Part shown: positions 36,878 to 49,063 of the stretch, piece by piece | Numbering within the stretch: position 1 is the stretch's first letter | Layout: every line of letters begins with the position of its first letter | From: Arthrobacter sp. efr-133-R2A-120 | Lineage (GTDB): Bacteria > Actinomycetota > Actinomycetes > Actinomycetales > Micrococcaceae | Reading direction: 5' to 3' | Length of the DNA stretch: 64,000 nucleotides | NCBI RefSeq assembly: GCF_030209835.1 | Contig: NZ_JARVRF010000013.1 | Coordinates: 1 to 64,000 of the forward strand | The notes under the pieces: generated by a model | Seen by the model: the letters and a program-made list of their open reading frames with translations, nothing else | Told to the model about the DNA's origin: nothing | Database searches by the model: none | Translations under genes and position numbers: made by a program

Positions 36878-37237
36878 ATGGCCGGGATGTTTGAACTCTT
36901 CATCGACGAGGACACGAGCTTCAGATTCAGGCTCAAAGCGCCGGACGGAACGGTGGTAGCCGTCTCCAAGTCCTTTCCCGACAAGCGCGCCGCGGTGAGC
37001 GGCATCAGTGACGTACGCGAATATGCAGGAATGGGCCTGATCACCGATCTATGCCCCGAAGTCCCCGTTCGCGGAACATCACCCACGCCACCGGTTCCCG
37101 CCGTACGCCAAACCAGTCCTGCCCCAATGCCGCAGCTTCCCGTCCCGCCGCGGCACCATAGTCCGCTTCCACCACGCGAAAGAACCGGCCGCCCCTGGCA
37201 CACCCCCGCCCTGGTCGACCATCCTGCACCGGTTTAG
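36878..37237 (+). CDS. DUF1508 (YegP-like) protein with proline-rich tail
   Basis: A 119-residue protein. The first 60 residues match one DUF1508 repeat: FELFIDEDTSFRFRLKAPDG, then SKSFPDKRAAVSGISDVRE. The rest is a Pro-rich low-complexity tail (TSPTPPVPAVRQTSPAPMPQ and so on). AGGAGG lies 6 bases upstream of the ATG. Its last codon and stop overlap the stop of the convergent glycerate kinase by 4 bases. Function is unknown. Confidence 0.75.
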   Translation: MAGMFELFIDEDTSFRFRLKAPDGTVVAVSKSFPDKRAAVSGISDVREYAGMGLITDLCPEVPVRGTSPTPPVPAVRQTSPAPMPQLPVPPRHHSPLPPRERTGRPWHTPALVDHPAPV

Positions 37238-38394
37238 ACGAGGCGTGAAGCCATTGCCCGCGCCGCGAGGACACGCAGCAGTGGCCGTGCGTTCCTGATT
37301 GCGTCGTCCCTGTCCTCGGTTAGATCCCTGATGCATTCAGCCGCACAGATCCCGTTGAGGTGGAGGCGTGATCTTGTTTCGGCCTGAATGATGCCACTGA
37401 GGGCAAGGACGGGAATGCCCCGACGCATTGCGGCCCGGGCTACCGCAATTGGCGCTTTTCCTTCCAAGGATTGATCGTCGAGTGAACCTTCTCCAACGAT
37501 CACCAGATCGGAACCGCTCATGGCGGTATCGAGGCCGATGAGTTCCCCGATGAGCTCGATGCCCGGCGCGATCCGGCCAACACCCGCTGCAAGGAAGCCG
37601 ACTGCGAATCCGCCCGCGGCACCCACACCTGGCGTGGCTGAGGCGTCAACGCCGAACGCGCCGAAGAAGAGGCCATTCCATCTCTCAAGGCGGCGTTCGA
37701 GGCGTTCAATGGTCACCGGGTCCGCGCCCTTCTGGGGACCGAAAAGGTGTGCCGCCCCTCGTTCGCCGACAAGGGGGACGCAGACATCTGTGGCGATGAC
37801 CACTTCGGCGCCAGCCAGTCGTGGGTCGAGAGTGGATCCGTCAATAGCGGTCCCGCACACGGCGTCACTGCTGTGTGTGATCACGGTCCCGCTTGGATCG
37901 AGAACCGTCAGGCCAAGAGCCGAAAGCGCCCCCACGCCCGCATCGGTGCTGGCAACGCCCCCGGCAGCGACGATGATCTTGCGGAATCCGGAGTCGAGGG
38001 CGTCGAGAATCAATTGACCGACGCCATACGTTGAGGCATCTTCGGCTGTTGCTGCAGATGGTTGTGGAATGAGCTGCAGTCCGGCGGCCTGGGCCATCTC
38101 GATGACCGCCGTGTCCTTGAGAGAGGCCCAGGCCGCTTCCACTGGTTCGCCAAGCGGGCCGCTGACGGTGAGATGGTGGAGGTCTGCCCCTGCAGCAACA
38201 AGTGCATCGATCGTCCCCTCACCGCCGTCCGCGACAGGAAGGAGGGTGATCTCACTGTCAGGAGCGGCATCAAGCACGCCTGCGGCAATAGCATCGGCGG
38301 CTTGCCCGGCGGTGAGGGACCCCTTGAATTTGTCGGGAGCGACGAGAATTCGCAGCGGCCGGGAAGAAAGCCGCGCATCGTGTGCGGTGGTCAA
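37234..38394 (-). CDS. Glycerate kinase (GlxK/GarK family)
   Basis: A 386-residue kinase that phosphorylates D-glycerate to 2- or 3-phosphoglycerate, joining lower glycolysis. The N-terminal ILVAPDKFKGSLTAGQAADA, the loop LPVADGGEGTIDAL and the C-terminal DLVIVGEGSLDDQSLEGKAP are diagnostic. It is the last gene of the eight-gene operon that starts at 46140 and overlaps the SDR gene by 4 bases. Its presence suggests that the pathway yields glycerate. Confidence 0.93.
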   Translation of the reverse strand: MTTAHDARLSSRPLRILVAPDKFKGSLTAGQAADAIAAGVLDAAPDSEITLLPVADGGEGTIDALVAAGADLHHLTVSGPLGEPVEAAWASLKDTAVIEMAQAAGLQLIPQPSAATAEDASTYGVGQLILDALDSGFRKIIVAAGGVASTDAGVGALSALGLTVLDPSGTVITHSSDAVCGTAIDGSTLDPRLAGAEVVIATDVCVPLVGERGAAHLFGPQKGADPVTIERLERRLERWNGLFFGAFGVDASATPGVGAAGGFAVGFLAAGVGRIAPGIELIGELIGLDTAMSGSDLVIVGEGSLDDQSLEGKAPIAVARAAMRRGIPVLALSGIIQAETRSRLHLNGICAAECIRDLTEDRDDAIRNARPLLRVLAARAMASRLV

Positions 38395-39176
38395 TAGGTG
38401 GCCCTTCCGCCGGATAGGTCATAAACGAAGCCGGTCGTGTACGAAGCGTTGGGCGAGATGATGTACTCGATCAGCGCGGCGGCCTCCTCCGCTGTGCCCA
38501 GCCGATGCATGGGGATCCGTTCGAGGTCTTGCCGCGTAGGCGGGTGCCCGCTCACCAAGGGGGTGTCGATTTTGCCCGGTGCGATTGCGTTGACGATGAC
38601 TCCGGTCGTCGCATATTCCCGTGCCAAGGCCTTCACCAGACCTGTGATTCCTGCCTTGCTGGCGGAATAGCCGGTCATCCCGGCCACGCCCTCCTTTCCC
38701 GCAGTGGACGAAAAGTGGATGAGCCGGCCGAATCCGTTCGCCGCCATACCTGGAAGCACGGCTTTTGATAGTGCGAACGCACCAACAAGGTTCACGCGGA
38801 GAAGCCTGTCGAACTCTTCGAGGGTTTCTTCGACGGAGGGTTGAACTTTCCCGAGGATTCCTGCGGTGTTGATGACTACATCCAGGCCTCCGGCCAAGGA
38901 GATAGCTTGCTCGACAGCCTCTTCAACTGATTGGGGTTCGGAAACATCGATGGGAAGCTGAGAGTATGGCGTTCGAGCTGCCGGCCATTGGGAGGTCGGG
39001 AGGTCGGCGCCGATGACTCTGCCAACTTTCGTACTGAGCAGTTCCGCGGTTGCATGGCCGATTCCGGACGCGGCGCCTACGATCAGGCAGCGGAGATCGG
39101 AGAATGAAGGAGTTGCGGCGGGCATCTGAGCGGACGCATCAGCCACGGCGCGGGCGGGGTTGCTGTATTGGGCCAT
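38391..39176 (-). CDS. Short-chain dehydrogenase/reductase
   Basis: A 261-residue classical SDR. It has the nucleotide-binding motif VGAASGIGHATA, the NAG-type segment NTAGILG, a catalytic Ser in HFSSTAGK and the YxxxK motif in TGYSASKAG. The first 25 residues (Met to about Ser25) are an extra N-terminal stretch, so a later start is possible. It overlaps glycerate kinase and follows the DUF993 gene by 3 bases. It may reduce or oxidise a three- or four-carbon product of aldol cleavage. Confidence 0.9.
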   Translation of the reverse strand: MAQYSNPARAVADASAQMPAATPSFSDLRCLIVGAASGIGHATAELLSTKVGRVIGADLPTSQWPAARTPYSQLPIDVSEPQSVEEAVEQAISLAGGLDVVINTAGILGKVQPSVEETLEEFDRLLRVNLVGAFALSKAVLPGMAANGFGRLIHFSSTAGKEGVAGMTGYSASKAGITGLVKALAREYATTGVIVNAIAPGKIDTPLVSGHPPTRQDLERIPMHRLGTAEEAAALIEYIISPNASYTTGFVYDLSGGRATY

Positions 39177-39179
39177 TGG

Positions 39180-40340
39180 CTACAGTCCTTGTGCTCGGAA
39201 GTACGCCGTCGCCCGTGCTGCCGAAAGGTCGGGCTCAGGGAACAGGCCGATGCCGTTGGCCGCATCGAAGAGGTCCGCGAGGTGGAGGATCGAGCGGCCG
39301 GATTCGAGCCCGGCGACCATCCTGAAGTGGCTTTGCCATCCGGTGAGGTAACTGAGCCAGACGACGCCCACTTTGTAGTACTGTGTCGGGGTTTCGAAAA
39401 TGAGCCGGCTGAGAGGGACCGTGGGTTCCAGGATGTCGCGGAATCCCACGACGTCTCCTTTGTCGAGTTTGGCGAAAGCCGCAGACGCGAACCGGGGCAC
39501 TGCGGCGAAGGCGCCCAGGAGCGCGTCGCTGTGGCCTTGTTCGTCCCCGGCGATGAGATCGGCGTAGTTGAAGTCATCGCCGGTGAACAGGCGGACGCCG
39601 GCGGGAAGCCGCCGACGGAAGCTGATCTCATGGTCCTTGTCGAGCAGCGAGATCTTGGTCCCTGCGACCTTTTCCCTTTTCGCACGGATGAGCGCCAAGA
39701 CTGTTTCCGAGGCATCGGCGATGGTAGGGGCGCCCCAGTAGCCCTCCAGCGAGGGGTCGAACATCGAGCCCAGCCAGTGCAGGATCACGGGCCGCGTGGC
39801 CGCATCCAGTACCTTGCCGTAGACGTTGAAGTAGTCGTCGGCCCCGCTCGCGGTGCGGGCCAGATGACGGCTTGCCATCATGACGACACTGCCCCCGACT
39901 GCCTCGATTTCGCCCAGCTGCTCGATGTAGGCGTCGGTGATTTCTTCGAGTGAATGAGGTGCGGCGTCCAGTTGGTCGGTGGCGATTCCGACGACGACCG
40001 AGCCGCCAACGCTTTTGGCTTCGGCAAGTGTGCGCCGTGCGAGTTCGAGCGCTATTGCCGGTCCGAGCCCCATTCCGCGCTGGGCGGTATCCATGCTCTC
40101 CGCGACACCAAGTCCAAGGTTCCAGAGGGAATGCCGGAGCTGGAGAGTGGCATCCCAGTCGATGGCGGCCGGAGATCCCGCGCCGGACCGTAGCGGGTCG
40201 GCGACGACGTGCCCGGCCGCGTAAGCAACACGTGATGTGGGCGGCGCAGTCAGTGTTTCCAGCGTGGCCGGCTGGGCTAGTTCCAGGGTCCGATGCCGGC
40301 CGGAGGCGGCGGGTAGCTGAATGGTGGTCAGGGTCTTCAT
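39180..40340 (-). CDS. DUF993-family protein, dihydrodipicolinate synthase-like aldolase
   Basis: A 386-residue TIM-barrel protein of the DUF993 family, distantly related to dihydrodipicolinate synthase and other class I aldolases. Recognisable parts include GVAESMDTAQRGMGLG, DAATRPVILHWLGSMFDPSL, KISLLDKDHEISFRRRLPAG and LFTGDDFNYADLI. A Lys in GTKISLLDK is a candidate Schiff-base residue. It overlaps the isomerase gene by 4 bases. No reaction is established for the family; retro-aldol cleavage of a dehydro-sugar acid is an inference. Confidence 0.8.
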   Translation of the reverse strand: MKTLTTIQLPAASGRHRTLELAQPATLETLTAPPTSRVAYAAGHVVADPLRSGAGSPAAIDWDATLQLRHSLWNLGLGVAESMDTAQRGMGLGPAIALELARRTLAEAKSVGGSVVVGIATDQLDAAPHSLEEITDAYIEQLGEIEAVGGSVVMMASRHLARTASGADDYFNVYGKVLDAATRPVILHWLGSMFDPSLEGYWGAPTIADASETVLALIRAKREKVAGTKISLLDKDHEISFRRRLPAGVRLFTGDDFNYADLIAGDEQGHSDALLGAFAAVPRFASAAFAKLDKGDVVGFRDILEPTVPLSRLIFETPTQYYKVGVVWLSYLTGWQSHFRMVAGLESGRSILHLADLFDAANGIGLFPEPDLSAARATAYFRAQGL

Positions 40341-41209
40341 GCTGGTTGACGCTCCGATTCGTTGAGGGGTTCGCCGACATAGCGGTTGAAGCTGGAGACG
40401 GTGCGCTTGATGATCGTCTCGAGGGGTAGCTTCCAGATGTCTTCGTTGAAAATTTCGACTTCGATGGGTCCGCTGTAGCCGGCGTGGCGGATCGAAGCGG
40501 TGAGGGCTGCTAGATCGATTTCGCCGTCCCCTGGAAAGAGGCGGCCGTTCATGTTCTCCGGGACAGGAAGGGGCAGTGCGAAGTCGCTGACTTGGTAGCC
40601 CGCGATCCGCGGACCCGCGGCCAGCACATCGTCATGGAAGCGGCTGTCCCAGGACGTGGCATAGGCATCTATGAGTAGCCCGACAGTGTCGGCGGGAAAG
40701 TCGGCGGTGACCCGCAGCGCCTGGGCGATGGTTGTCACAATGCTCCGCGTGCCGACGAACAGTGGATGCAGAGGTTCGAGCGCGAGTCTCACGCCGGCGT
40801 CGCGGGCGTACGGCTCCACTTCTTCGATGGCGGCCCGGAGCCGGACTTCAGCGTGCTGAATGCTGCGGTCGTGTGCCGGGAGACCGCCGGCGATAAGCGT
40901 CAGCATTGGACTGCCGACCTCGCGGGACAGCTCCAAGGCCCGCTTGACTCCTTCGAGCGCCGCCCGTAGATCGGCGCCTTCTTTGTCCGCGAGGAATCCA
41001 GCCCTGCAAACGGAGCTGACCGACAAACCTGTGTCGGCGAGCACCCGCCGGGCGCGGGCGATTCCGATCTCCTCCACCGGTTCGATCCACAAACCGATGT
41101 GCCGGATGCCCGCTTGCATTGCCGCTTCGGCTGTCTCAGTCAATGGATAGGGGCGGGTGGTGGCCTGGTTCAGGCTAAGTTCCACCGTTTCGCTGCGGAC
41201 GTGCATCAT
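40337..41209 (-). CDS. Sugar phosphate isomerase/epimerase-like TIM barrel
   Basis: A 290-residue xylose-isomerase-like TIM-barrel protein. Likely metal ligands lie in RLALEPLHPL (Glu), VGLLIDAYATSW (Asp) and GPIEVEIFNED (Glu). The family contains isomerases, epimerases, dehydratases (3-dehydroshikimate dehydratase) and keto-glycoside lyases, so the exact reaction is open. It overlaps both neighbours, DUF993 and Gfo/Idh, by 4 bases, which is strong evidence for a joint pathway. Confidence 0.85.
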   Translation of the reverse strand: MMHVRSETVELSLNQATTRPYPLTETAEAAMQAGIRHIGLWIEPVEEIGIARARRVLADTGLSVSSVCRAGFLADKEGADLRAALEGVKRALELSREVGSPMLTLIAGGLPAHDRSIQHAEVRLRAAIEEVEPYARDAGVRLALEPLHPLFVGTRSIVTTIAQALRVTADFPADTVGLLIDAYATSWDSRFHDDVLAAGPRIAGYQVSDFALPLPVPENMNGRLFPGDGEIDLAALTASIRHAGYSGPIEVEIFNEDIWKLPLETIIKRTVSSFNRYVGEPLNESERQPA

Positions 41210-42336
41210 CGGGATTTCCCCGCTTCGGCCAATGAGTGCGACAGATGGGTGAAGTGGCGCGATTCCACAGACGCGGAGCGGATTTGAACCGGTAGCCCTG
41301 TACGAGCCGATTCATAGACGGCGGCGACGATTTGGAGCGACTTCATGGCTTCACGTCCGGTGACGGCTGGTTGCCGTCCGGAGCGAATGGCATCGACGAA
41401 GTCGGCCACTTGGACTCTGTGCAAGGGCAGGAGCCGTGCGTTGACTTCCGCCACAGGGATATCGCCGCTCAAACCATCCGGGAATACCGTCCCGGCCCGT
41501 TCCTCGCCGGGTATTGCCCACAGGTCGTTCACCGCGTCGGAGCCTTCCGGGTATTCCGTGACCTGCACCGTCGCACCGTTGCTTCCAGTGACGACGATGC
41601 GCGTGCCAAGGTTCGGGCTGGCGGCGACCGTAGCGCTGAGTGTCGCTATGGCTCCGGAGGCAAAGGTGATGAGCGCAGCCGCGGTGTCTTCGACTTCGAT
41701 GGTGTCGCCGAGGACGAAGGAACCGGCCTTGGCGCTGACCTCCACGGGGTCCCCCATGAACCACTGAAGGAGGTCGATGTTGTGGATTGCCTGGGTCATG
41801 AGCACTCCGCCGCCGTCTGCAGCCCAGGTGCCGCGCCAAGCGGCCGCGTCGTAGTAGTCGATGCCGCGGTGCAGGAGTACTTGGCCGTGTCCAAGCATCG
41901 GTGTGCCGAGGCGACCGTCGTCGATGGCTGTCCGGAGGGCCCGGGCGCCGGGCCAAAAGCGGCGCTGGAACACCACCCCCAGGGTGATGCCGCCCTCTTC
42001 GGCGGCGCTGACCATTCGTTCAGCGGCGCCGGTGTCGGTGGCAATTGGCTTTTCGCACAGAACGTGCACTCCTGCGGACGCGGCTTCGGCCACGACGGCC
42101 TCGTGCGTCGGGTGCGGTGTGCAGACGCTGAGGGCGTCGATTCCCAGCGCTATGAGTTCCCTCACCGAGGGGACAGCGTGCGCGATGCCACGTTCGGCCG
42201 CGAACATTTGTGCGCGTTCGACGGCGACATCGCAGACTCCGACGATTTCGACGTCGGGCAACGCGGAGTAGGACTGGAAGTGGTTGTCGGCGATGTTGCC
42301 GCAGCCGACGATTCCTACGCGGAAGGGGTGGTTCAT
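41206..42336 (-). CDS. Gfo/Idh/MocA-family oxidoreductase
   Basis: A 376-residue NAD(P)-dependent dehydrogenase. The Rossmann motif is VGIVGCGNIADNHFQ, and the EKP motif is VLCEKPIATD. The substrate region has the usual HNIDLLQWFMGDP. Family members oxidise hydroxyl groups of inositols, glucosides and sugars, often at C3. It is coupled to the isomerase gene by overlap and lies 2 bases after the transporter gene. Confidence 0.9.
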   Translation of the reverse strand: MNHPFRVGIVGCGNIADNHFQSYSALPDVEIVGVCDVAVERAQMFAAERGIAHAVPSVRELIALGIDALSVCTPHPTHEAVVAEAASAGVHVLCEKPIATDTGAAERMVSAAEEGGITLGVVFQRRFWPGARALRTAIDDGRLGTPMLGHGQVLLHRGIDYYDAAAWRGTWAADGGGVLMTQAIHNIDLLQWFMGDPVEVSAKAGSFVLGDTIEVEDTAAALITFASGAIATLSATVAASPNLGTRIVVTGSNGATVQVTEYPEGSDAVNDLWAIPGEERAGTVFPDGLSGDIPVAEVNARLLPLHRVQVADFVDAIRSGRQPAVTGREAMKSLQIVAAVYESARTGLPVQIRSASVESRHFTHLSHSLAEAGKSR

Positions 42337-42338
42337 TG

Positions 42339-43721
42339 CTACTCTCCTGAGGGATTCGGCGTGGAAGGACGCACGCGGGCGGTGGAAATCGGGGCTCCCA
42401 GTTGTTCCAGGGGCACTTTGAAGGTTTCCTTTGCGGTGAGGGCGCTGGCTGCGGCCATGAGGGCGATGACGGCGGAGATCGTGGCGACCGGCATCCAGTC
42501 GCGCGGGTGGCCGGCCGTCAGCGCGGTGTAAATGGTCGGCGCGAACCCGGCTGCGATGAGGCCGATCTGCAAGCCGAGGGCCATGCCGGTCTGGCGGACC
42601 TTCAGGTTGAACATTTCCGCGAAGAACGACGGGTAGGTGGCGTTGATGGCCGCGTAGGCGAAGGAAACCGAAAGGAATCCCGCCACGAAGAGCAGTGGCA
42701 CGTTGCCGGATTGGATGGAGGCGAAGTACGCGAAGATCATGGCCGCGGATCCGATGTTGCCTGCTATGAATACCGGTTTCCGCCCGATCCGGTCAGAGAG
42801 GGCAGCGAACAAAGGCTGGGTCACGAGGGCGCACACGTGGCTGACGATGAGGACCCACAGCATGGTGCTGCTCGGGACAGCATAGACAGACGTCGCCAAT
42901 GAGAGCGCAAAGACCTTGATGACGGTGTCAATCGCGAACGCAAGCGAGCAGAAGGTGACCCGGACGATGGCACCCCAATGCGAGTGGAACACTTCGACCA
43001 CCGGTACCTTCACCAAGGCGTGCTCCTCCTTGGCTTCAAGGAATGCTTCCGGCTCGGTGAGCTTCGCACGGATGATGAGACCGGCGACTGTGACGAGGGC
43101 GCTGAGGAGGAACGGAATGCGCCAGCCCCAACTGAGCAGCTGGTCTTTGGGCAGTGCGGAGATCGGTACGAAGATGAGGGTGGCCAGGACGAAGCCTCCG
43201 ACGATCCCGTTGGGGGCCCAACTCGTGAAGAAGCCCCGGCGCCCTTCCGGCGATACCTCGATGGTGAGTACTGTGGCCGCGGCAGTCTCGCCGCCGACGG
43301 AAATGCCTTGGAGGATGCGAAGAGTCACCAGGAGGACTGCCGCCCAAACTCCGATCTGGGAGTATCCGGGTAGGCAACCAACGAGGAACGTGCATGTTCC
43401 CATGAGGATGAGAATGAAGACGAGGACCTTCTTGCGTCCGATCCGGTCCCCGAAGTGTCCCAGCAGAATCGCGCCGATCGGCCGGGCCACGTAGGAAACG
43501 GCGAAAGTGGCCAGGGCTGCCAGAGTCGCAACGCCGCCCGCTTCCGGGAAGAAGACTTTGCCGAAGACGAGGGCGGCAGCCAAGGCGTAAATGTAGTTGT
43601 CGTAATATTCCAGCGTGCCGCCGGCCATGCTTGCGATGGCAGCGCGCGTGGGGCTGTTCTTGACCCGCGGCGGGTGGACCGCCGTGGTGTGTAGGGATGT
43701 GTTCACTGACTTCTCCTTCAT
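42339..43721 (-). CDS. MFS transporter, metabolite:H+ symporter (MHS) type
   Basis: A 460-residue protein with 12 membrane segments. The family signature is clear: AGGTLEYYDNYIYALAAALV in TM1, the loop GHFGDRIGRKKVLVF between TM2 and TM3, and GISVGGETAAATVLTIEVSP around TM4. Known MHS members carry shikimate, citrate, tricarballylate, dicarboxylates or betaines, so a carboxylated substrate is likely. It is the only transporter in this operon. Confidence 0.9.
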   Translation of the reverse strand: MKEKSVNTSLHTTAVHPPRVKNSPTRAAIASMAGGTLEYYDNYIYALAAALVFGKVFFPEAGGVATLAALATFAVSYVARPIGAILLGHFGDRIGRKKVLVFILILMGTCTFLVGCLPGYSQIGVWAAVLLVTLRILQGISVGGETAAATVLTIEVSPEGRRGFFTSWAPNGIVGGFVLATLIFVPISALPKDQLLSWGWRIPFLLSALVTVAGLIIRAKLTEPEAFLEAKEEHALVKVPVVEVFHSHWGAIVRVTFCSLAFAIDTVIKVFALSLATSVYAVPSSTMLWVLIVSHVCALVTQPLFAALSDRIGRKPVFIAGNIGSAAMIFAYFASIQSGNVPLLFVAGFLSVSFAYAAINATYPSFFAEMFNLKVRQTGMALGLQIGLIAAGFAPTIYTALTAGHPRDWMPVATISAVIALMAAASALTAKETFKVPLEQLGAPISTARVRPSTPNPSGE

Positions 43722-43759
43722 TGCAGATTCAGTTGCCTGATACCCCTTGGGGACTCCGG

Positions 43760-44764
43760 CTAGGGGATGATGAGGGTCTTGCCACGGCCGAGGCGGCCTT
43801 GTGCAAATGCTTCGATCGCTGCCGGGGCGTCGTTGAGGCCCTGGACAATGTCGTTGGGGATTGCTGCCAGGCCATGGCGGGCGACCAAGGCAGCCGCCGT
43901 CGAGAGGTCTTCCGAGGTGTAGCAGAAGGTTCCGGTGAGGGTGAGTTCCCGCCGGACGAGGTCTTCCGTTGGTGGAAGGGCCCCTCCTTTGGCGAGTCCC
44001 GCCACGCAGATCGTCGAGCCCGGTTCCAGCAGCTCCATCACGGCGCTGACGCTGGTGCCGCTTCCCACGGTGTCAATGGCGACATCCCAGCGCTCCGCGG
44101 CTCCTTCCCCCGGGGCAATGGCGATGACCCCGTGATCCGTGATCGTCGCGCGGCGAACGGCGTCGGGTTCGATGACGGTGACGCTTTTCGCGCCAAGGCT
44201 GCGGGCCTGGAGTGCGGACGCCATGCCGATCGCCCCGCCGCCGACGATCACCAGGCGCGCGCCGGGTGAGACATTCGCGCGGGCGCAAGCGCGCACTCCG
44301 ACGGCGATGGGCTCAATAAGCGCGAGGGCCCGTGGATCTGCGGCCCCCGGGACAGCGACGGTGTTGACGGCGTCAACCGTCACGTAGCTTTGCAGACCGC
44401 CGTCGACGTCGAGGCCCATGAGTTCGCGCCGGCGGCACAGTCCACGCGAACCTGTTGCGCATTCCCGGCATTCGCCACAGACGCGGTTGGGATCGACTGC
44501 CACTTGCTGGCCGACGGTCCGGATCGTCACGTTCGGGCCGACCTCCACAACGGTGCCCCCGAATTCGTGCCCGAGTGTGGTTCCGATCCGGACGCGGTTG
44601 TTATGCCCGCGCCATATCGCAGCGTCCGTGCCGCACACACCAACGCTCTCGACGCGAATCACTATCTCGTCCGGACCCGGCGGAGTCGGCGCGGGCCGTG
44701 GCTCAACGACGAGCCGTTCCGCGCCCGTCCAGGCAACCCGGCGGGCCAACGTCGGGGCGCTCAT
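43760..44764 (-). CDS. Zinc-dependent MDR dehydrogenase
   Basis: A 334-residue threonine/sorbitol dehydrogenase-like protein. The catalytic zinc Cys is in SVGVCGTDAAIWRG and His-Glu in LGHEFGGTV. The structural zinc cluster is CGECRECATGSRGLC and the nucleotide-binding motif is LVIVGGGAIGMASALQARS. The start overlaps the flavoprotein gene by 4 bases, and 38 bases separate its end from the transporter gene, the largest gap in the operon. Oxidation of a secondary hydroxyl in a polyol or hydroxy acid is likely. Confidence 0.9.
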   Translation of the reverse strand: MSAPTLARRVAWTGAERLVVEPRPAPTPPGPDEIVIRVESVGVCGTDAAIWRGHNNRVRIGTTLGHEFGGTVVEVGPNVTIRTVGQQVAVDPNRVCGECRECATGSRGLCRRRELMGLDVDGGLQSYVTVDAVNTVAVPGAADPRALALIEPIAVGVRACARANVSPGARLVIVGGGAIGMASALQARSLGAKSVTVIEPDAVRRATITDHGVIAIAPGEGAAERWDVAIDTVGSGTSVSAVMELLEPGSTICVAGLAKGGALPPTEDLVRRELTLTGTFCYTSEDLSTAAALVARHGLAAIPNDIVQGLNDAPAAIEAFAQGRLGRGKTLIIP

Positions 44765-46140
44765 GGCGCAGAAACCAGTTCGTCGGCCCCGTGACCGCGC
44801 ACAATGTGGGCAACGGCGGCGTCTGCGGCGCGTCGGCCGAAAACGAATCCGAAGACGATGCCACCGACGTACCGGAGGTCCTGGGCTCCCCCGGCGTCGG
44901 CCCCGGCAGCGAACAGTCCGGGGATGGGAAGGTTGTCCCGGTCCAGGACCCGGCTATCACCGTCCACACGCAGTCCGCCGAACGGAATCGTGATGCATGG
45001 CTGCACCTCGATTGCCCTGAAGGGACCCTTCTTGAGCGCACTCGGGTTCGCAGGCAGCGGGGCGTCGAGCGCCACGGACTCGCCGTCGGAGGCTCGCTGG
45101 TAGCTTTCCAAGGTGGCGGCCAGGGCGGCGCGGTCGACACCCCAACTGGCAACGACCTCGACGAGTTCCTCCAGGGTGTCCGTTTCCGCGGTCCGGGCGC
45201 CGAGCTTCTTCGCTTCGCCATGACGGTCAAGCGCCATGCCGCTGGGATACGGGACAGCGAGAGCGCGATTCTGCTGGACCTGGTCATCCCAGATCAGGAC
45301 GCCGCGCTGCCCCGGCTCCCGGACAAGGAATTGGTTGGAGACTTCGTCGCCGAGCGACTCATCGGTGAATCGCAGGCCGCGCCTGTTGACCAAAACGCCG
45401 TAGGCGGAGAAATACAAGGTAAGGCGGAGGAACACCTCTGGCGAGACCGGCAGCGGACTCGGCAGGGTGTGGCCGTAGAAGCCGGACAGATGGCGGCTCG
45501 CCGCTCCCCCGGCCGCGGTTCCGAGGCGAAATCCATCACCGACTGAGTGCGGGTTGCTGCGAACAGCTATGTCGTCGGCACCGTTGCCAATGAACTTCTG
45601 CTTGAGCTCGGGGTCACCCTGGAACCCACCTGTTGCAAGTACTGTTGCCGCACCAAGTGCGCTCTTTTCTTCTCCCTCGTGGGTGAACGTCACGCCTGCA
45701 ACCTTGCCGCCGTCGATGATGAGTTCGACGTCGCTGACTCCGGTGAGAAGACCGCCGCCGCTGGCATTGATTTTCGCGGTCCACTTGGCGAACAGGTCAA
45801 GGATGTCAACCTTGCAGGCGCGACCCCATTCGAGGTGATCGCGCCATTCTTCGCTGACGCTGACACCGGCGGCACGCACATCCTTCACGGCCTGCTCGTA
45901 ACCTTCCACCACCAATGGCCCCAGGACCGGATCGCCGTCGGGCTGGATGCGGCGAAGGACATCAACATTCGGTGCCGTCCAGAGAATGCCCGCTGAAAGC
46001 GCGGCAGACCCTCCCGCAGCCGCGCCCTTCTCAAGCAGGAGAACGCGTCCCCCAAGGTCCACTGCCCGGTTTGCGGTTGCCAAACCTGCCGCCCCCGCAC
46101 CGACGACGATCAGGTCAAAAGGCTCCGTAATGTCTGTCAT
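44761..46140 (-). CDS. FAD-dependent oxidoreductase, fumarate-reductase flavoprotein-like
   Basis: A 459-residue FAD_binding_2 protein. The FAD dinucleotide motif LIVVGAGAAGLATANRAVDL is at residues 9-28, and the second FAD contact is GLFAAGADAGGAQDLRYVGG near the C-terminus. Relatives include tricarballylate dehydrogenase, 3-ketosteroid dehydrogenase and urocanate reductase, all acting on C-C bonds next to a carbonyl or carboxyl. It is the first gene of the operon, with AAGGAG 6 bases before the ATG. It faces a LacI gene across two operators. Confidence 0.87.
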   Translation of the reverse strand: MTDITEPFDLIVVGAGAAGLATANRAVDLGGRVLLLEKGAAAGGSAALSAGILWTAPNVDVLRRIQPDGDPVLGPLVVEGYEQAVKDVRAAGVSVSEEWRDHLEWGRACKVDILDLFAKWTAKINASGGGLLTGVSDVELIIDGGKVAGVTFTHEGEEKSALGAATVLATGGFQGDPELKQKFIGNGADDIAVRSNPHSVGDGFRLGTAAGGAASRHLSGFYGHTLPSPLPVSPEVFLRLTLYFSAYGVLVNRRGLRFTDESLGDEVSNQFLVREPGQRGVLIWDDQVQQNRALAVPYPSGMALDRHGEAKKLGARTAETDTLEELVEVVASWGVDRAALAATLESYQRASDGESVALDAPLPANPSALKKGPFRAIEVQPCITIPFGGLRVDGDSRVLDRDNLPIPGLFAAGADAGGAQDLRYVGGIVFGFVFGRRAADAAVAHIVRGHGADELVSAP

Positions 46141-46168: not shown

Positions 46169-46183
46169 GGATAACGTTTACCG
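46169..46183. promoter_or_regulatory. Operator-like site A of the eight-gene catabolic operon
   Basis: GGATAACGTTTACCG, centred on the palindromic AACGTT. It is identical to site B at 46212-46226 except for one base. It lies 29 bases upstream of the flavoprotein start. The core fits a LacI-family operator. Confidence 0.6.
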
Positions 46184-46211: not shown

Positions 46212-46226
46212 GGATAACGTTTTCCG
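46212..46226. promoter_or_regulatory. Operator-like site B of the eight-gene catabolic operon
   Basis: GGATAACGTTTTCCG, with near-perfect dyad GGANAACGTTNTCC. It is in the same orientation as site A and its start is 43 bases away, about four helical turns, so both sites face the same side of the DNA. Confidence 0.65.
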
Positions 46227-46339
46227 TTACGCTAGTTCCACCCGGACCTCCTGTCAAGACGGGCGCCGGAAGACATTGGGAATCGTCAGCTTCGGTTGCG
46301 GTTAGGCTGGAGCGTCGATCACATCAAAGGAGTCTGGAC

Positions 46340-47356
46340 ATGGCCACGTTGCGAGAGATAGCCGAACTGGCGTCCGTCTCGGTAGCCACCGCTTCACGCG
46401 TGCTCAACGGCTCGGCGGAGAAGCACCCGGTGTCCCAGGATGTGCGGGCCAGTGTGCGGGCTGCAGCGGACACTCTGGGCTACACGCCGAGCGCCACGGC
46501 CCAGGCGCTGAAGCAACAGCGCAGCAAAATCATCGGCGTCATTGCCAGCGACATCCTCGATCCATACTTCGCAGAGATGACCCGCGGGATCGAGATCGAA
46601 GCGGCCAAGTTCGGATATGTCACTATTTTGGCCAATGCCAACCGCGACCCGGAGCAGGAGCGGACAAAATTCCGCGTCCTGCGTGAACATCAAGTCTCCG
46701 GGATCGTGTTTTGCGGCAGCGACATCGAGGGCTCACCCGGAACCGCGCAACTCGCCCGCGAAGTCAACCTCGCCGTAAGGGCCGGTACGCGGGTAGTGGC
46801 GCTCGCTCCCCGGGGGTTTGATTCCACGAAGATCGTCATCGACAACGCCGCGACGGCGTACGAACTTACCCAGTACATGCTTTCGCTTGGGCACCGAAAA
46901 ATTGCCTTCATCGGAGGAATTCCCGGACTCTCCGCGGCCGAGCAGCGAATTGTCGGCTACCGCGATGCAATGTTCGAAGCGCAGGCCCCCGCACAAGTCC
47001 TCGGCTTGACCGGCATGAGCCAGGAATCGGGAAAGCGCGCCGCCGAGGAACTGACCGCATCGACTCAACTTCCGGACGCGATCGTCTGCACCAACGATGA
47101 AGTGGCCGTCGGCGTTCTCGCGCATCTTTGGACCGCAGGGTACAAGATCCCCGAAGACGTGTCCGTCGCCGGCATAGGTGGTACGCGTGGTGGTGCAGTC
47201 TTCGGCCTCACGACAATGACGCTCCCCCTGGTGGAGCTCGGCGGACTTGCCGCCCGTTACATCGCCACGGCAGGTGGCTCATCAGACGTGCCGGCTCCCC
47301 CGAGCTTTGAGCTGCATATCGGATCCACCTCTGCCCCGCGCGGACAATCCGACTAA
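46340..47356 (+). CDS. LacI-family regulator of the eight-gene catabolic operon
   Basis: A 338-residue LacI-family protein with the helix-turn-helix LREIAELASVSVATASRVLN and a sugar-binding-like effector domain (for example IPEDVSVAGIGGTRGGAVFG near the C-terminus). Unlike its paralogs here it has GIGG instead of the usual GFDD in that last motif, so the effector site may differ. AAAGGAG precedes the ATG. It is divergent from the flavoprotein gene, and the two operator-like sites lie between them. Confidence 0.9.
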   Translation: MATLREIAELASVSVATASRVLNGSAEKHPVSQDVRASVRAAADTLGYTPSATAQALKQQRSKIIGVIASDILDPYFAEMTRGIEIEAAKFGYVTILANANRDPEQERTKFRVLREHQVSGIVFCGSDIEGSPGTAQLAREVNLAVRAGTRVVALAPRGFDSTKIVIDNAATAYELTQYMLSLGHRKIAFIGGIPGLSAAEQRIVGYRDAMFEAQAPAQVLGLTGMSQESGKRAAEELTASTQLPDAIVCTNDEVAVGVLAHLWTAGYKIPEDVSVAGIGGTRGGAVFGLTTMTLPLVELGGLAARYIATAGGSSDVPAPPSFELHIGSTSAPRGQSD

Positions 47357-47428
47357 ACGGGCGTCCGCTGAAGGGCATCCCGCCGCGGCGCCCCTTGTCC
47401 CGGCCTCGCGCCGCCGGGTGTAATGGAC

Positions 47429-47455
47429 GCACGACGGCGACTCCCGCCGTCGTGC
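47429..47455 (+). terminator. Terminator hairpin before the acyl-CoA ligase gene
   Basis: GCACGACGGCG (47429-47439) and CGCCGTCGTGC (47445-47455) form a perfect 11-bp stem with loop ACTCC. It lies after the LacI gene and only 5 bases before the ribosome-site region of the next gene, so it may also shape that gene's leader. No U-tract follows. Confidence 0.6.
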
Positions 47456-47470
47456 GCTGAAGGAGCCGCA

Positions 47471-49063
47471 ATGTTCACCAGCCCGTACGCTGATGTCGAG
47501 ATCCCCGAAGTCACGATCTATGAGTATCTATTCGGTGGGCTGGGCGGCGAGGACCTTGACCGGACCGCACTCGTGGACGGCACGTCCGGCGTGGAAATGA
47601 GCTACCGGCAACTCGTCAGCCGAATCGACGCCACCGCAGGCTGGCTCGCGAGCCACGGGGCCGGCCCAGGGATCACCGTGGGCCTCTTCTGCCCCAACGT
47701 GCCGGCGTTCGCGGTCGTCTTCCACGGGGTCCTCCGCGCGGGCGCCGTCGTCACCACGATCAACGCGCTGTATACCGCCGATGAAGTCGGCAGCCAGCTC
47801 AGCGACGCCGGCGCCTCCTGGCTCTTCACCGTCTCGCCCTTCCTGGAGCGCGCGGAGGCCGCCGCCCAGGCCGCCGGCATTCCGGCGGAGCGCCTCGTGG
47901 TGCTCGACGGCGGCGACCTCGCCTCGGCCGCGGGCCATCCCTCGCTCGCGGACATCATCGACGCCGGCCTTCCCGCGCCGACGCTGAGCGTCGATCCGCA
48001 CGCCGCCGCCGTCGTGCCCTACTCCTCGGGCACGAGCGGCACACCGAAGGGCGTCCTGTTGAGCCAGTACAACCTCGTGGCGAACGTCGCGCAATCCAGT
48101 GCCTTCTTCCGGGTGACTCCCGACGACGTGCTGCTTGCCGTCTTGCCCTTCTTCCACATCTACGGCCTGACCGTGCTGCTCAATCTCGCCCTCGGAGAGC
48201 GGGCCCGGCTCGTCACGATGCCGAAGTTCGACCTCGCCGAGTTCCTCCGCATCACGCAGGACCATCGCTGCACGTACCTCTTCATCGCTCCGCCCATCGC
48301 CGTCGCACTGGCGAAGCATCCGCTGGTGGACCAATACGACCTCTCGTCCGTCCGCGCCGTGCTTTCGGGAGCAGCGCCCCTTGACGGCGAACTGGGGCAC
48401 GCTGTTGCGAACCGCCTCGGGTGCACGATGCTCCAGGGCTATGGAATGACCGAGCTGAGCCCCGTATCCCACGCCATCCCGCGCGACGGCGCCGAGCATG
48501 TCCCGCTCGACTCAGTGGGCTACACCGTGCCGAACACGGAGTGCAAGCTCCTCGACCCCGCCACGGACGAAGAAATCGAAGTCCCGGCCGAAGGACCGAG
48601 CGCCCGCGGACAGCTGCTAGTCCGCGGCCCGCAGGTCATGCTCGGCTACCTGAACCGGCCCGACGCTACAGCGGCGACGATCGATCCGGATGGCTTCCTC
48701 CGCACCGGCGATATCGCGACCGTCACGGCCGACGGCGTCGTGACGATCGTCGATCGACTCAAGGAGCTGATCAAGTACAAGGGCTACCAGATCGCGCCTG
48801 CCGAGCTTGAAGCGCTCCTGCTTACCCACCCACGGATTGCGGACGCCGCCGTCATCGGCATCCACGCGGACGACGGCGAAGAGGTGCCAAAGGCATTCGT
48901 CGTCCGGCAGGCAGGGGCCGAGCTCGGGGACGGCGATGTCATGGAGTTCGTCGCCGGGCGTGTGGCGCCGTTCAAACGGGTGCGATCGGTGGAGTTCGTC
49001 GAGGCGATTCCCAAGTCGGCGTCGGGGAAGATCCTTCGGCGGGAGCTGCGCGCTAAGGGTTAG
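47471..49063 (+). CDS. AMP-binding acyl-CoA ligase (4-coumarate-CoA ligase-like)
   Basis: A 530-residue adenylate-forming enzyme. It has the phosphate-binding loop PYSSGTSGTPKGVLLS, the motif GYGMTELSP, the hinge region VDRLKELIKYKGYQIAPAEL and the C-terminal catalytic lysine in PKSASGKILRREL. These fit the 4-coumarate/fatty-acyl-CoA ligase group; the substrate is not determined. AAGGAG lies 5 bases before the ATG. No beta-oxidation genes are near, so it is an orphan ligase. Confidence 0.9.
   Translation: MFTSPYADVEIPEVTIYEYLFGGLGGEDLDRTALVDGTSGVEMSYRQLVSRIDATAGWLASHGAGPGITVGLFCPNVPAFAVVFHGVLRAGAVVTTINALYTADEVGSQLSDAGASWLFTVSPFLERAEAAAQAAGIPAERLVVLDGGDLASAAGHPSLADIIDAGLPAPTLSVDPHAAAVVPYSSGTSGTPKGVLLSQYNLVANVAQSSAFFRVTPDDVLLAVLPFFHIYGLTVLLNLALGERARLVTMPKFDLAEFLRITQDHRCTYLFIAPPIAVALAKHPLVDQYDLSSVRAVLSGAAPLDGELGHAVANRLGCTMLQGYGMTELSPVSHAIPRDGAEHVPLDSVGYTVPNTECKLLDPATDEEIEVPAEGPSARGQLLVRGPQVMLGYLNRPDATAATIDPDGFLRTGDIATVTADGVVTIVDRLKELIKYKGYQIAPAELEALLLTHPRIADAAVIGIHADDGEEVPKAFVVRQAGAELGDGDVMEFVAGRVAPFKRVRSVEFVEAIPKSASGKILRRELRAKG

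Follow-up and report, generated by a model that had tools for sequence, protein, structure and literature searches.

What does a compact eight-gene operon of Arthrobacter sp. efr-133-R2A-120 break down, and which reaction does the DUF993 protein encoded within it contribute? The operon occupies positions 37234-46140, on the minus strand, of the 64,000-nucleotide stretch analysed here (contig NZ_JARVRF010000013.1, positions 1 to 64,000), which we refer to as the window. DUF993 is widespread in Actinomycetes and a structure of one member was solved in 2012 (PDB 4dnh), yet Pfam continues to list the family as of "unknown function", and the operon provides a handle on it. We favour, at a probability of roughly 45%, a LacI-regulated catabolic operon for what is probably a carboxylated polyhydroxy substrate, in which DUF993 would perform a retro-aldol split and the glycerate obtained from the C3 half would be phosphorylated. 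The comparisons presented here yield a narrow hypothesis, that of a lysine-imine aldolase feeding a glycerate kinase, and since the operon is compact and carries its own repressor and two operators, its substrate and reaction should be findable by ordinary genetics.

The operon and its proposed route

The original prediction placed eight minus-strand genes in a single operon; the eight open reading frames (ORFs) were found at those positions, all on the minus strand, and the family assigned to each agrees with its Pfam matches. With the divergent regulator gene, the features are:

44761..46140, minus: FAD_binding_2 flavoprotein of the TcuA/fumarate-reductase/ketosteroid-dehydrogenase superfamily, probable C-C desaturase (Pfam FAD_binding_2, 125 bits)
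43760..44764, minus: zinc-dependent alcohol/polyol dehydrogenase, ZnDH (Pfam ADH_N, 92 bits; ADH_zinc_N)
42339..43721, minus: metabolite/H+ symporter of the MHS type, carboxylate type (Pfam Sugar_tr/MFS_1, 114/102 bits)
41206..42336, minus: Gfo/Idh/MocA NAD(P)-dependent dehydrogenase, Gfo (Pfam GFO_IDH_MocA, 96 bits; C-terminal domain, 103 bits)
40337..41209, minus: xylose-isomerase-like TIM barrel, XylI (Pfam AP_endonuc_2, 112 bits; relatives PDB 7vpf, 3ju2 and 3qc0)
39180..40340, minus: DUF993, a DHDPS-fold lyase with an invariant Lys229, proposed class I aldolase (PF06187, 541 bits against a cut-off of 24)
38391..39176, minus: short-chain dehydrogenase/reductase (SDR) with a YxxxK motif (Pfam adh_short_C2, 164 bits)
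37234..38394, minus: GarK-type glycerate kinase (PF02595, Gly_kinase, 374 bits against a cut-off of 23)
46340..47356, plus: LacI-family repressor of the operon, divergent (Pfam LacI and Peripla_BP_1)

The operon is genuine, compact and catabolic, with a partly conserved membership. The tight coupling noted earlier holds, with six rather than five of the seven junctions being an overlap or a spacing of 3 bases or less. Genes overlap by 4 bases at FAD/ZnDH, Gfo/XylI, XylI/DUF993 and SDR/glycerate kinase (TTGA in the last case) and are separated by 2 bases at MHS/Gfo and 3 bases at DUF993/SDR; the ZnDH/MHS gap is 38 bases, or 53 if the symporter begins at the GTG that follows an AAGGAGA box. Family searches likewise agree with a carboxylate-type transporter accompanied by several oxidoreductases. 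The glycerate kinase exceeds the cut-off of TIGR00045 (340 bits against 168) and also matches GarK-type models in NCBIfam. The top NCBIfam model for the symporter, TIGR00883, scores 358 bits, under its cut-off of 443, and the shikimate transporter model 273 bits, under 538. Hydroxypyruvate isomerase was considered for XylI and rejected (TIGR03234, 36 bits against a cut-off of 353).

In the route that we propose, the MHS-type symporter would import the compound, and ZnDH, Gfo/Idh and the flavoprotein would turn hydroxyls into ketones and/or create a C=C bond adjacent to a carbonyl. The flavoprotein takes the place that acyl-CoA dehydrogenase plus coenzyme A (CoA)-transferase have in most of the nearest relatives. 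XylI might then isomerise or eliminate to give a cleavable keto intermediate, which DUF993, as a Schiff-base (Lys229) class I lyase, would split by a retro-aldol reaction. The acid half would be a C3 oxo acid, either tartronate semialdehyde or hydroxypyruvate isomerised to tartronate semialdehyde; the SDR would convert it to glycerate, and the glycerate kinase would form phosphoglycerate. The gene content, operators, fold, lysine, partner genes and repeated kinase recruitment are observations; the direction and order of the steps, the C3 oxo acid and the desaturase role are the parts of this route that we infer.

A different use of the same families would be an oxidation of the inositol or cyclitol type (IolG, IolM and IolO/IolE), with DUF993 and the glycerate kinase as accessories. 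The top NCBIfam models for ZnDH and Gfo are indeed IolM (130 bits) and IolG (158.5 bits), and the XylI matches include IolO (29 bits), but these scores lie far under the respective cut-offs of 450, 355 and 300. In addition, Pfam finds neither a hydrolase nor an inositol kinase/aldolase set among the eight proteins, and the transporter is of the carboxylate type. We consider an inositol-type pathway improbable.

The DUF993 fold and its conserved lysine

The suggestion that DUF993 is a C-C cleaving enzyme gains support from a modelled aldolase fold and from an invariant lysine at what would be the Schiff-base position. The AlphaFold2 model (predicted local distance difference test score, pLDDT, 94.5) has as its top fold match 4dnh (Z 56.6), which is SMc04132 of Sinorhizobium meliloti and the sole clear sequence relative of the window's DUF993 with a solved structure. 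The matches that come next are chains of the DHDPS family, with Z of 30.4-31.6, root-mean-square deviations of 2.3-2.5 over 287-292 residues and 13-18% identity. A Foldseek search with the model returned E values from 2e-11, and its list includes L-2-keto-3-deoxyarabonate dehydratase and N-acetylneuraminate lyase (NAL). Lys229 is invariant in all 41 aligned DUF993 sequences and stands in register with the Schiff-base lysine of DHDPS when the DUF993 profile is compared with four DHDPS-family proteins that the genome also encodes (hhalign E 0.0014); the hhalign probability, just 17%, is low owing to shallow profiles. Pfam reports no PF00701 (DHDPS) match in DUF993, PF06187 being the only model found at E 0.001. 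As judged from these alignments, DUF993 is a divergent sister family of the DHDPS/NAL class I aldolase superfamily, not DHDPS itself, and would be a class I lyase acting on a donor half that is perhaps something other than a plain 2-keto acid.

An alternative is a scheme resembling the non-phosphorylative Entner-Doudoroff pathway, in which DUF993 would split a 2-keto-3-deoxy acid into pyruvate and glyceraldehyde, the latter being converted to glycerate and then phosphorylated. In archaea, 2-keto-3-deoxygluconate (KDG) aldolases of the DHDPS fold together with a glycerate kinase are a known arrangement, and some DUF993 loci (L104, L167 and L175, the last on plasmid pAO1) do contain a gene for aldehyde dehydrogenase as well as one for glycerate kinase. 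However, Pfam detects no aldehyde dehydrogenase among the eight proteins of the window operon, and the hhalign comparison places Asp-Thr in DUF993 where DHDPS-family proteins have the Thr-Thr motif, presumably the carboxylate motif for pyruvate-type donors. We regard this scheme as unlikely.

In PMC12542648, SMc04132 appears once, in a table row as an "uncharacterized protein" with a negative value and no function given. In the open-access literature we found no paper on DUF993 function or on such a pathway, in keeping with the earlier statement that the gene set matches no pathway that can be named.

Partners of DUF993 and the recruitment of glycerate kinases

An even draw of 394 Actinomycetes genomes contained DUF993 in 120, and named members of other phyla have it as well. 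Its neighbourhoods were compared in 165 loci, a convenience sample in which a partner was counted if a tblastn match lay within 7 kb. Eighty of these are the best 80 of 586 confirmed loci; another 58 were picked from the 120 positive genomes of the even draw, mostly for genus diversity and blind to neighbours, with the largest genus sampled below its share. A DUF993 match was present in 166 loci, from which one with a broken gene (L041) was left out, while two loci from the same genome (L031 and L076) were both counted. Kinases lying just beyond 7 kb or distant from DUF993 (L106, L107, L118, L138, L189, L215 and L217) do not enter the counts.

The neighbourhood comparison that had been suggested gives conserved partners. 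Gfo and XylI are the usual partners of DUF993, both being near it in 139 of the 165 loci, and LacI is near in 110. SDR was counted in 26 loci, ZnDH and MHS in 11 each, acyl-CoA dehydrogenase in 8 and the flavoprotein in 5. A glycerate kinase is near DUF993 in 19 loci (18 without the doubled genome), downstream and on the same strand in 15 of the 19. Some of these kinases are PF02595 proteins and others DUF4147+MOFRL proteins, two Pfam families without relation to each other. Among the 58 loci of the class draw, 7 have a glycerate kinase, downstream and on the same strand in 6; 4 of the 7 come from one genus and are not independent. A whole genome holds 1-4 PF02595 matches (20 genomes), and chance proximity of a kinase to DUF993 should thus be about 1% by our estimate. 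When rows of a PF02595 tree are labelled as being in a DUF993 operon or not (13 of 37 are), the label changes 6 times, with at least 5 changes forced by supported branches. On this tree, glycerate kinases have joined DUF993 several times, and no other observation points as strongly to glycerate as a product of DUF993 pathways as this repeated recruitment. It also speaks for the original prediction of a C3 product phosphorylated by the glycerate kinase.

The nearest relatives of the window's DUF993 were identified in a tree built by a quick method after removal of sequences more than 88% identical (133 of 165 kept). Together with three genus relatives and Agrococcus, in which the order XylI-DUF993-SDR-glycerate kinase recurs, it forms a group with a Shimodaira-Hasegawa-like approximate likelihood ratio test (SH-aLRT) support of 99. 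Four Mycobacteriales loci join this group (9 rows, SH-aLRT 99). All four have a CoA-transferase and three an acyl-CoA dehydrogenase match, and none has a flavoprotein match in the stretches covered; conversely, Pfam finds no acyl-CoA dehydrogenase among the eight proteins of the window operon. Two of them, L164 of Rhodococcus sp. USK13 (pUSK13_1) and L106 of Mycobacterium aquaticum, also have ZnDH, Gfo, MHS/MFS, SDR and XylI. L164 resembles the window in having glycerate kinase, LacI and a DUF993 of 63% identity as well. It differs in the addition of an acyl-CoA dehydrogenase, a CoA-transferase, an aldo/keto reductase and a sugar ATP-binding cassette (ABC) transporter, in the lack of a flavoprotein match, and in having genes on both strands and therefore more than one transcription unit. 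Across the whole sample, 16 of 165 loci combine two or more genes from the set of CoA-transferase, acyl-CoA dehydrogenase, enoyl-CoA hydratase and electron transfer flavoprotein, and 4 of these 16 also carry a glycerate kinase.

With a flavoprotein here and an acyl-CoA dehydrogenase in most of the nearest relatives, the two enzymes may carry out the same kind of step, an alpha,beta-desaturation, on a free acid or ketone in one case and on a thioester in the other. A more far-reaching proposal, which we consider speculative and somewhat doubtful, is that DUF993 represents a new family of class I aldolases (possibly hydratase-aldolases) with a hydroxyketone, not a 2-keto acid, as donor half, central to an undescribed route common in Actinomycetes and present in other phyla. 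There, flavin-dependent desaturation of a ketone or thioester would be followed by a split leading to glycerate, and the window operon would be the CoA-free version of a CoA-thioester route in Mycobacteriales.

A rival mechanism would have the flavoprotein turn a ketone into an enone, to which DUF993 would add water before splitting the product through its lysine imine; in the Gfo-DUF993-XylI loci the enone would come from a XylI-type elimination. Ketosteroid dehydrogenases desaturate ketones, and hydratase-aldolases of the NahE type belong to the DHDPS superfamily. An alignment shows Gln and Tyr in the flavoprotein at the positions of His and Arg in flavocytochrome c3, which we take to hold the substrate carboxylate; the replacement would fit a ketone substrate rather than a dicarboxylate. 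The acyl-CoA dehydrogenase found instead in three of the four Mycobacteriales loci is another alpha,beta-desaturase. However, there is no direct evidence for the enone, and most DUF993 loci contain neither desaturase, so that we judge this mechanism rather unlikely.

Conservation, regulation and comparison with known systems

Close orthologs of the flavoprotein (81-84% identity) occur in 5 other genomes, or 6 of 206 in the genus including its own, and define six orthologous clusters. LacI, flavoprotein, ZnDH, MHS, XylI and SDR are present in all six, Gfo/Idh in five and DUF993 in four, and a PF02595 glycerate kinase adjoins the SDR in two. The kinase of the G003 cluster comes from a different branch of its family (43% identity). 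An unconserved gene order had been named as a ground for refuting the original prediction, and it applies only in part: order is kept among the orthologous clusters, whereas membership is incomplete. The fixed eight-gene pathway first envisaged is not supported: Gfo is missing from one cluster, DUF993 from two and an adjoining glycerate kinase from four. This partial membership suggests a core with swappable members.

DUF993 and the glycerate kinase might accordingly be viewed as hitchhikers on a six-gene core that makes something else. The contrast between the universal six and the other members would fit, but the two clusters that lack DUF993 have five proteins in which they are 99% identical. 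In both (at L062:11315-11400 and at the corresponding junction of L063), the SDR starts with MKTLN, followed by the SDR's own LRCLIVGAASGIG, and MKTLN resembles the DUF993 start, MKTLT/MNTLT, in the window and in L060. The fusion looks, from its sequence, like the scar of an in-frame DUF993 deletion. DUF993 was probably once present in both clusters and lost in one event; both genomes retain another DUF993 elsewhere. Glycerate kinases have, moreover, been recruited several times beside other DUF993 genes. Hitchhiking is, in our view, quite improbable.

Returning to the retro-aldol route to glycerate, a number of points weigh against it. The kinase adjoins two of the six clusters and DUF993 is absent from two, and neither can be strictly needed in cis; over the wider sample, the 7 kb around DUF993 hold a glycerate kinase in only 19 of 165 loci. 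The SDR belongs to another family than GarR, with no GarR-family model among its matches. The active site also departs from that of DHDPS. According to hhalign, His188 stands in place of the catalytic Tyr (presumably Tyr133 of E. coli) and DTAQ in place of TTGE in the GTTGE motif, and if the roles of these residues are as we assume, the chemistry of DUF993 may differ. As to the substrate, the carboxylate-type importers near some other DUF993 genes (branched-chain-type ABC parts in L215 and L218, a tripartite tricarboxylate transporter in L169) speak for the route. Against it, many loci have sugar-type ABC importers instead: an RbsA-like ATPase seed matches in 45 of 165 loci, although it also catches other ABC ATPases. 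With importers this different, naming a sugar acid as the substrate, or a sugar that is oxidised to such an acid, amounts to guesswork. Among the nearest relatives, L106 and L082 are long branches whose placement the tree program flags as unsure, and L082 is the locus without an acyl-CoA dehydrogenase. The partner proteins of L164 are only 31-42% identical to those of the window, against 63% for DUF993; they share families with the window's proteins and are probably not orthologs of them, and the two gene sets could have been assembled separately.

Regulation extends the unit beyond the original coordinates. The divergent LacI gene is part of the operon unit, its orthologs (79-82% identity) occupying the same place in all five other clusters. 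A 199-base intergenic region separates it from the operon and holds two inverted-repeat operators, along with a promoter-like pair:

46212..46225, no strand: putative LacI-type operator 1, GGAAAACGTTATCC (pattern scan and intergenic comparison)
46169..46182, no strand: putative LacI-type operator 2, GGTAAACGTTATCC (pattern scan and intergenic comparison)
46229..46257, minus: promoter-like pair TTGACA-17-TAGCGT (found by eye, position checked)

Across the 5.12 Mb genome, GGWWAACGTTWWCC matches nowhere but at the two operators; the looser pattern GGNNAACGTTNNCC has 9 sites. Inspected by eye, every one of the six orthologous clusters has the second operator as GGNAAACGTTWNCC, and the first is exact in two and degenerate (GGTAAACCTTTGCC) in four. 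The strict pattern GGWWAACGTTWWCC matches in just two of the six genomes with an orthologous cluster. A TTGACA-17/18-TAGC(G/T)T pair precedes the operators in all six intergenic sequences (by eye). The pair in the window scores under the threshold of the consensus promoter scan, and a promoter and terminator scan gave sites no more numerous than in shuffled sequence. The operon looks like a stand-alone regulon, and with the strict operator pattern limited to it, other regulon members give no clue to the substrate.

A known route of comparable logic is the gar/gud pathway for glucarate and galactarate. As described in PMC11775122, it uses an aldolase (GarL or the DapA-like, DHDPS-family GudL), GarR and glycerate kinase in series. 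The route proposed here shares the series of aldolase, reductase and glycerate kinase. It differs in that the reductase is an SDR instead of a GarR relative and the aldolase is DUF993 instead of PF00701, and in the presence of extra oxidoreductases, a XylI protein and LacI control. None of GudD, GarD, GarR, GarL and GudL is among the matches listed for the eight proteins (Pfam and NCBIfam; for two proteins, the best 25 NCBIfam matches). Judged by its protein families, the window operon is not the gar/gud pathway.

A second comparison is with the widespread Gfo-DUF993-XylI trio, of which the window genome also carries a copy (L032). The families are those of the window operon, but the window's Gfo is only a distant relative of the genome's own trio Gfo (29% identity over 135 amino acids), and trio loci are mostly without flavoprotein, ZnDH, MHS and SDR. 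In the pAO1 cluster of Paenarthrobacter nicotinovorans (L175), Gfo, DUF993 and a GarK-type glycerate kinase adjoin as in the window. Unlike the window operon, it has GMC and AldH oxidoreductases; its DUF993 is 47% identical to the window's and groups with the trio copies in the tree. Its feature table, which may be incomplete, lists no XylI, ZnDH, MHS or FAD_binding_2 gene. An oxidative pathway for xylose has been published (Mihasan 2013), apparently for this cluster. Tricarballylate catabolism by TcuA and TcuC also combines an FAD_binding_2 dehydrogenase with an MHS symporter. Identity with these proteins was rejected for the flavoprotein (NF006130, 143 bits against a cut-off of 369) and for the symporter (TcuC, 198 bits against 445).

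Paralogs of the flavoprotein (35-44% identity) are carried by 12 genomes and were considered as a guide to its reaction, which their layouts did not identify. Protein clustering assigns 11 of the 12 loci (L064-L074) to one other operon type, in which the middle flavoprotein is the paralog at 41-44% identity. The member checked (L068:4552-12568) contains IclR, an MHS symporter, NIPSNAP, an SDR and three genes of the FAD_binding_2 type, and this operon may encode a ring-aromatisation or multi-desaturation route. Next to the LacI gene of the window, 66 bases 3' of it, lies an AMP-binding acyl-CoA synthetase gene (47423-49063, plus strand). It was rejected as a CoA-activating partner, with tblastn at 1e-5 giving no match near the other five orthologous clusters.

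Some DUF993 loci deserve mention in their own right. L185:7443-14648, from a different family within the order, holds the trio, LacI and a glycerate kinase in one direction, with a 331-amino-acid ORF without a Pfam match between LacI and the kinase. DUF993 matches lie in pieces at G030:C1:2113666-2114858, G002:C1:379764-380957 and G594:C1:750924-752067, one of them with an internal stop. In L040 (G002) and L041 (G030), Gfo and XylI matches still flank the fragments, and such copies possibly mark lineages in which the family is decaying. Finally, a Streptomyces plasmid carries a divergent DUF993 (about 40% identity; L173:8908-10098) whose neighbours are an FAD monooxygenase and a type I polyketide synthase, a possible biosynthetic use of the family.

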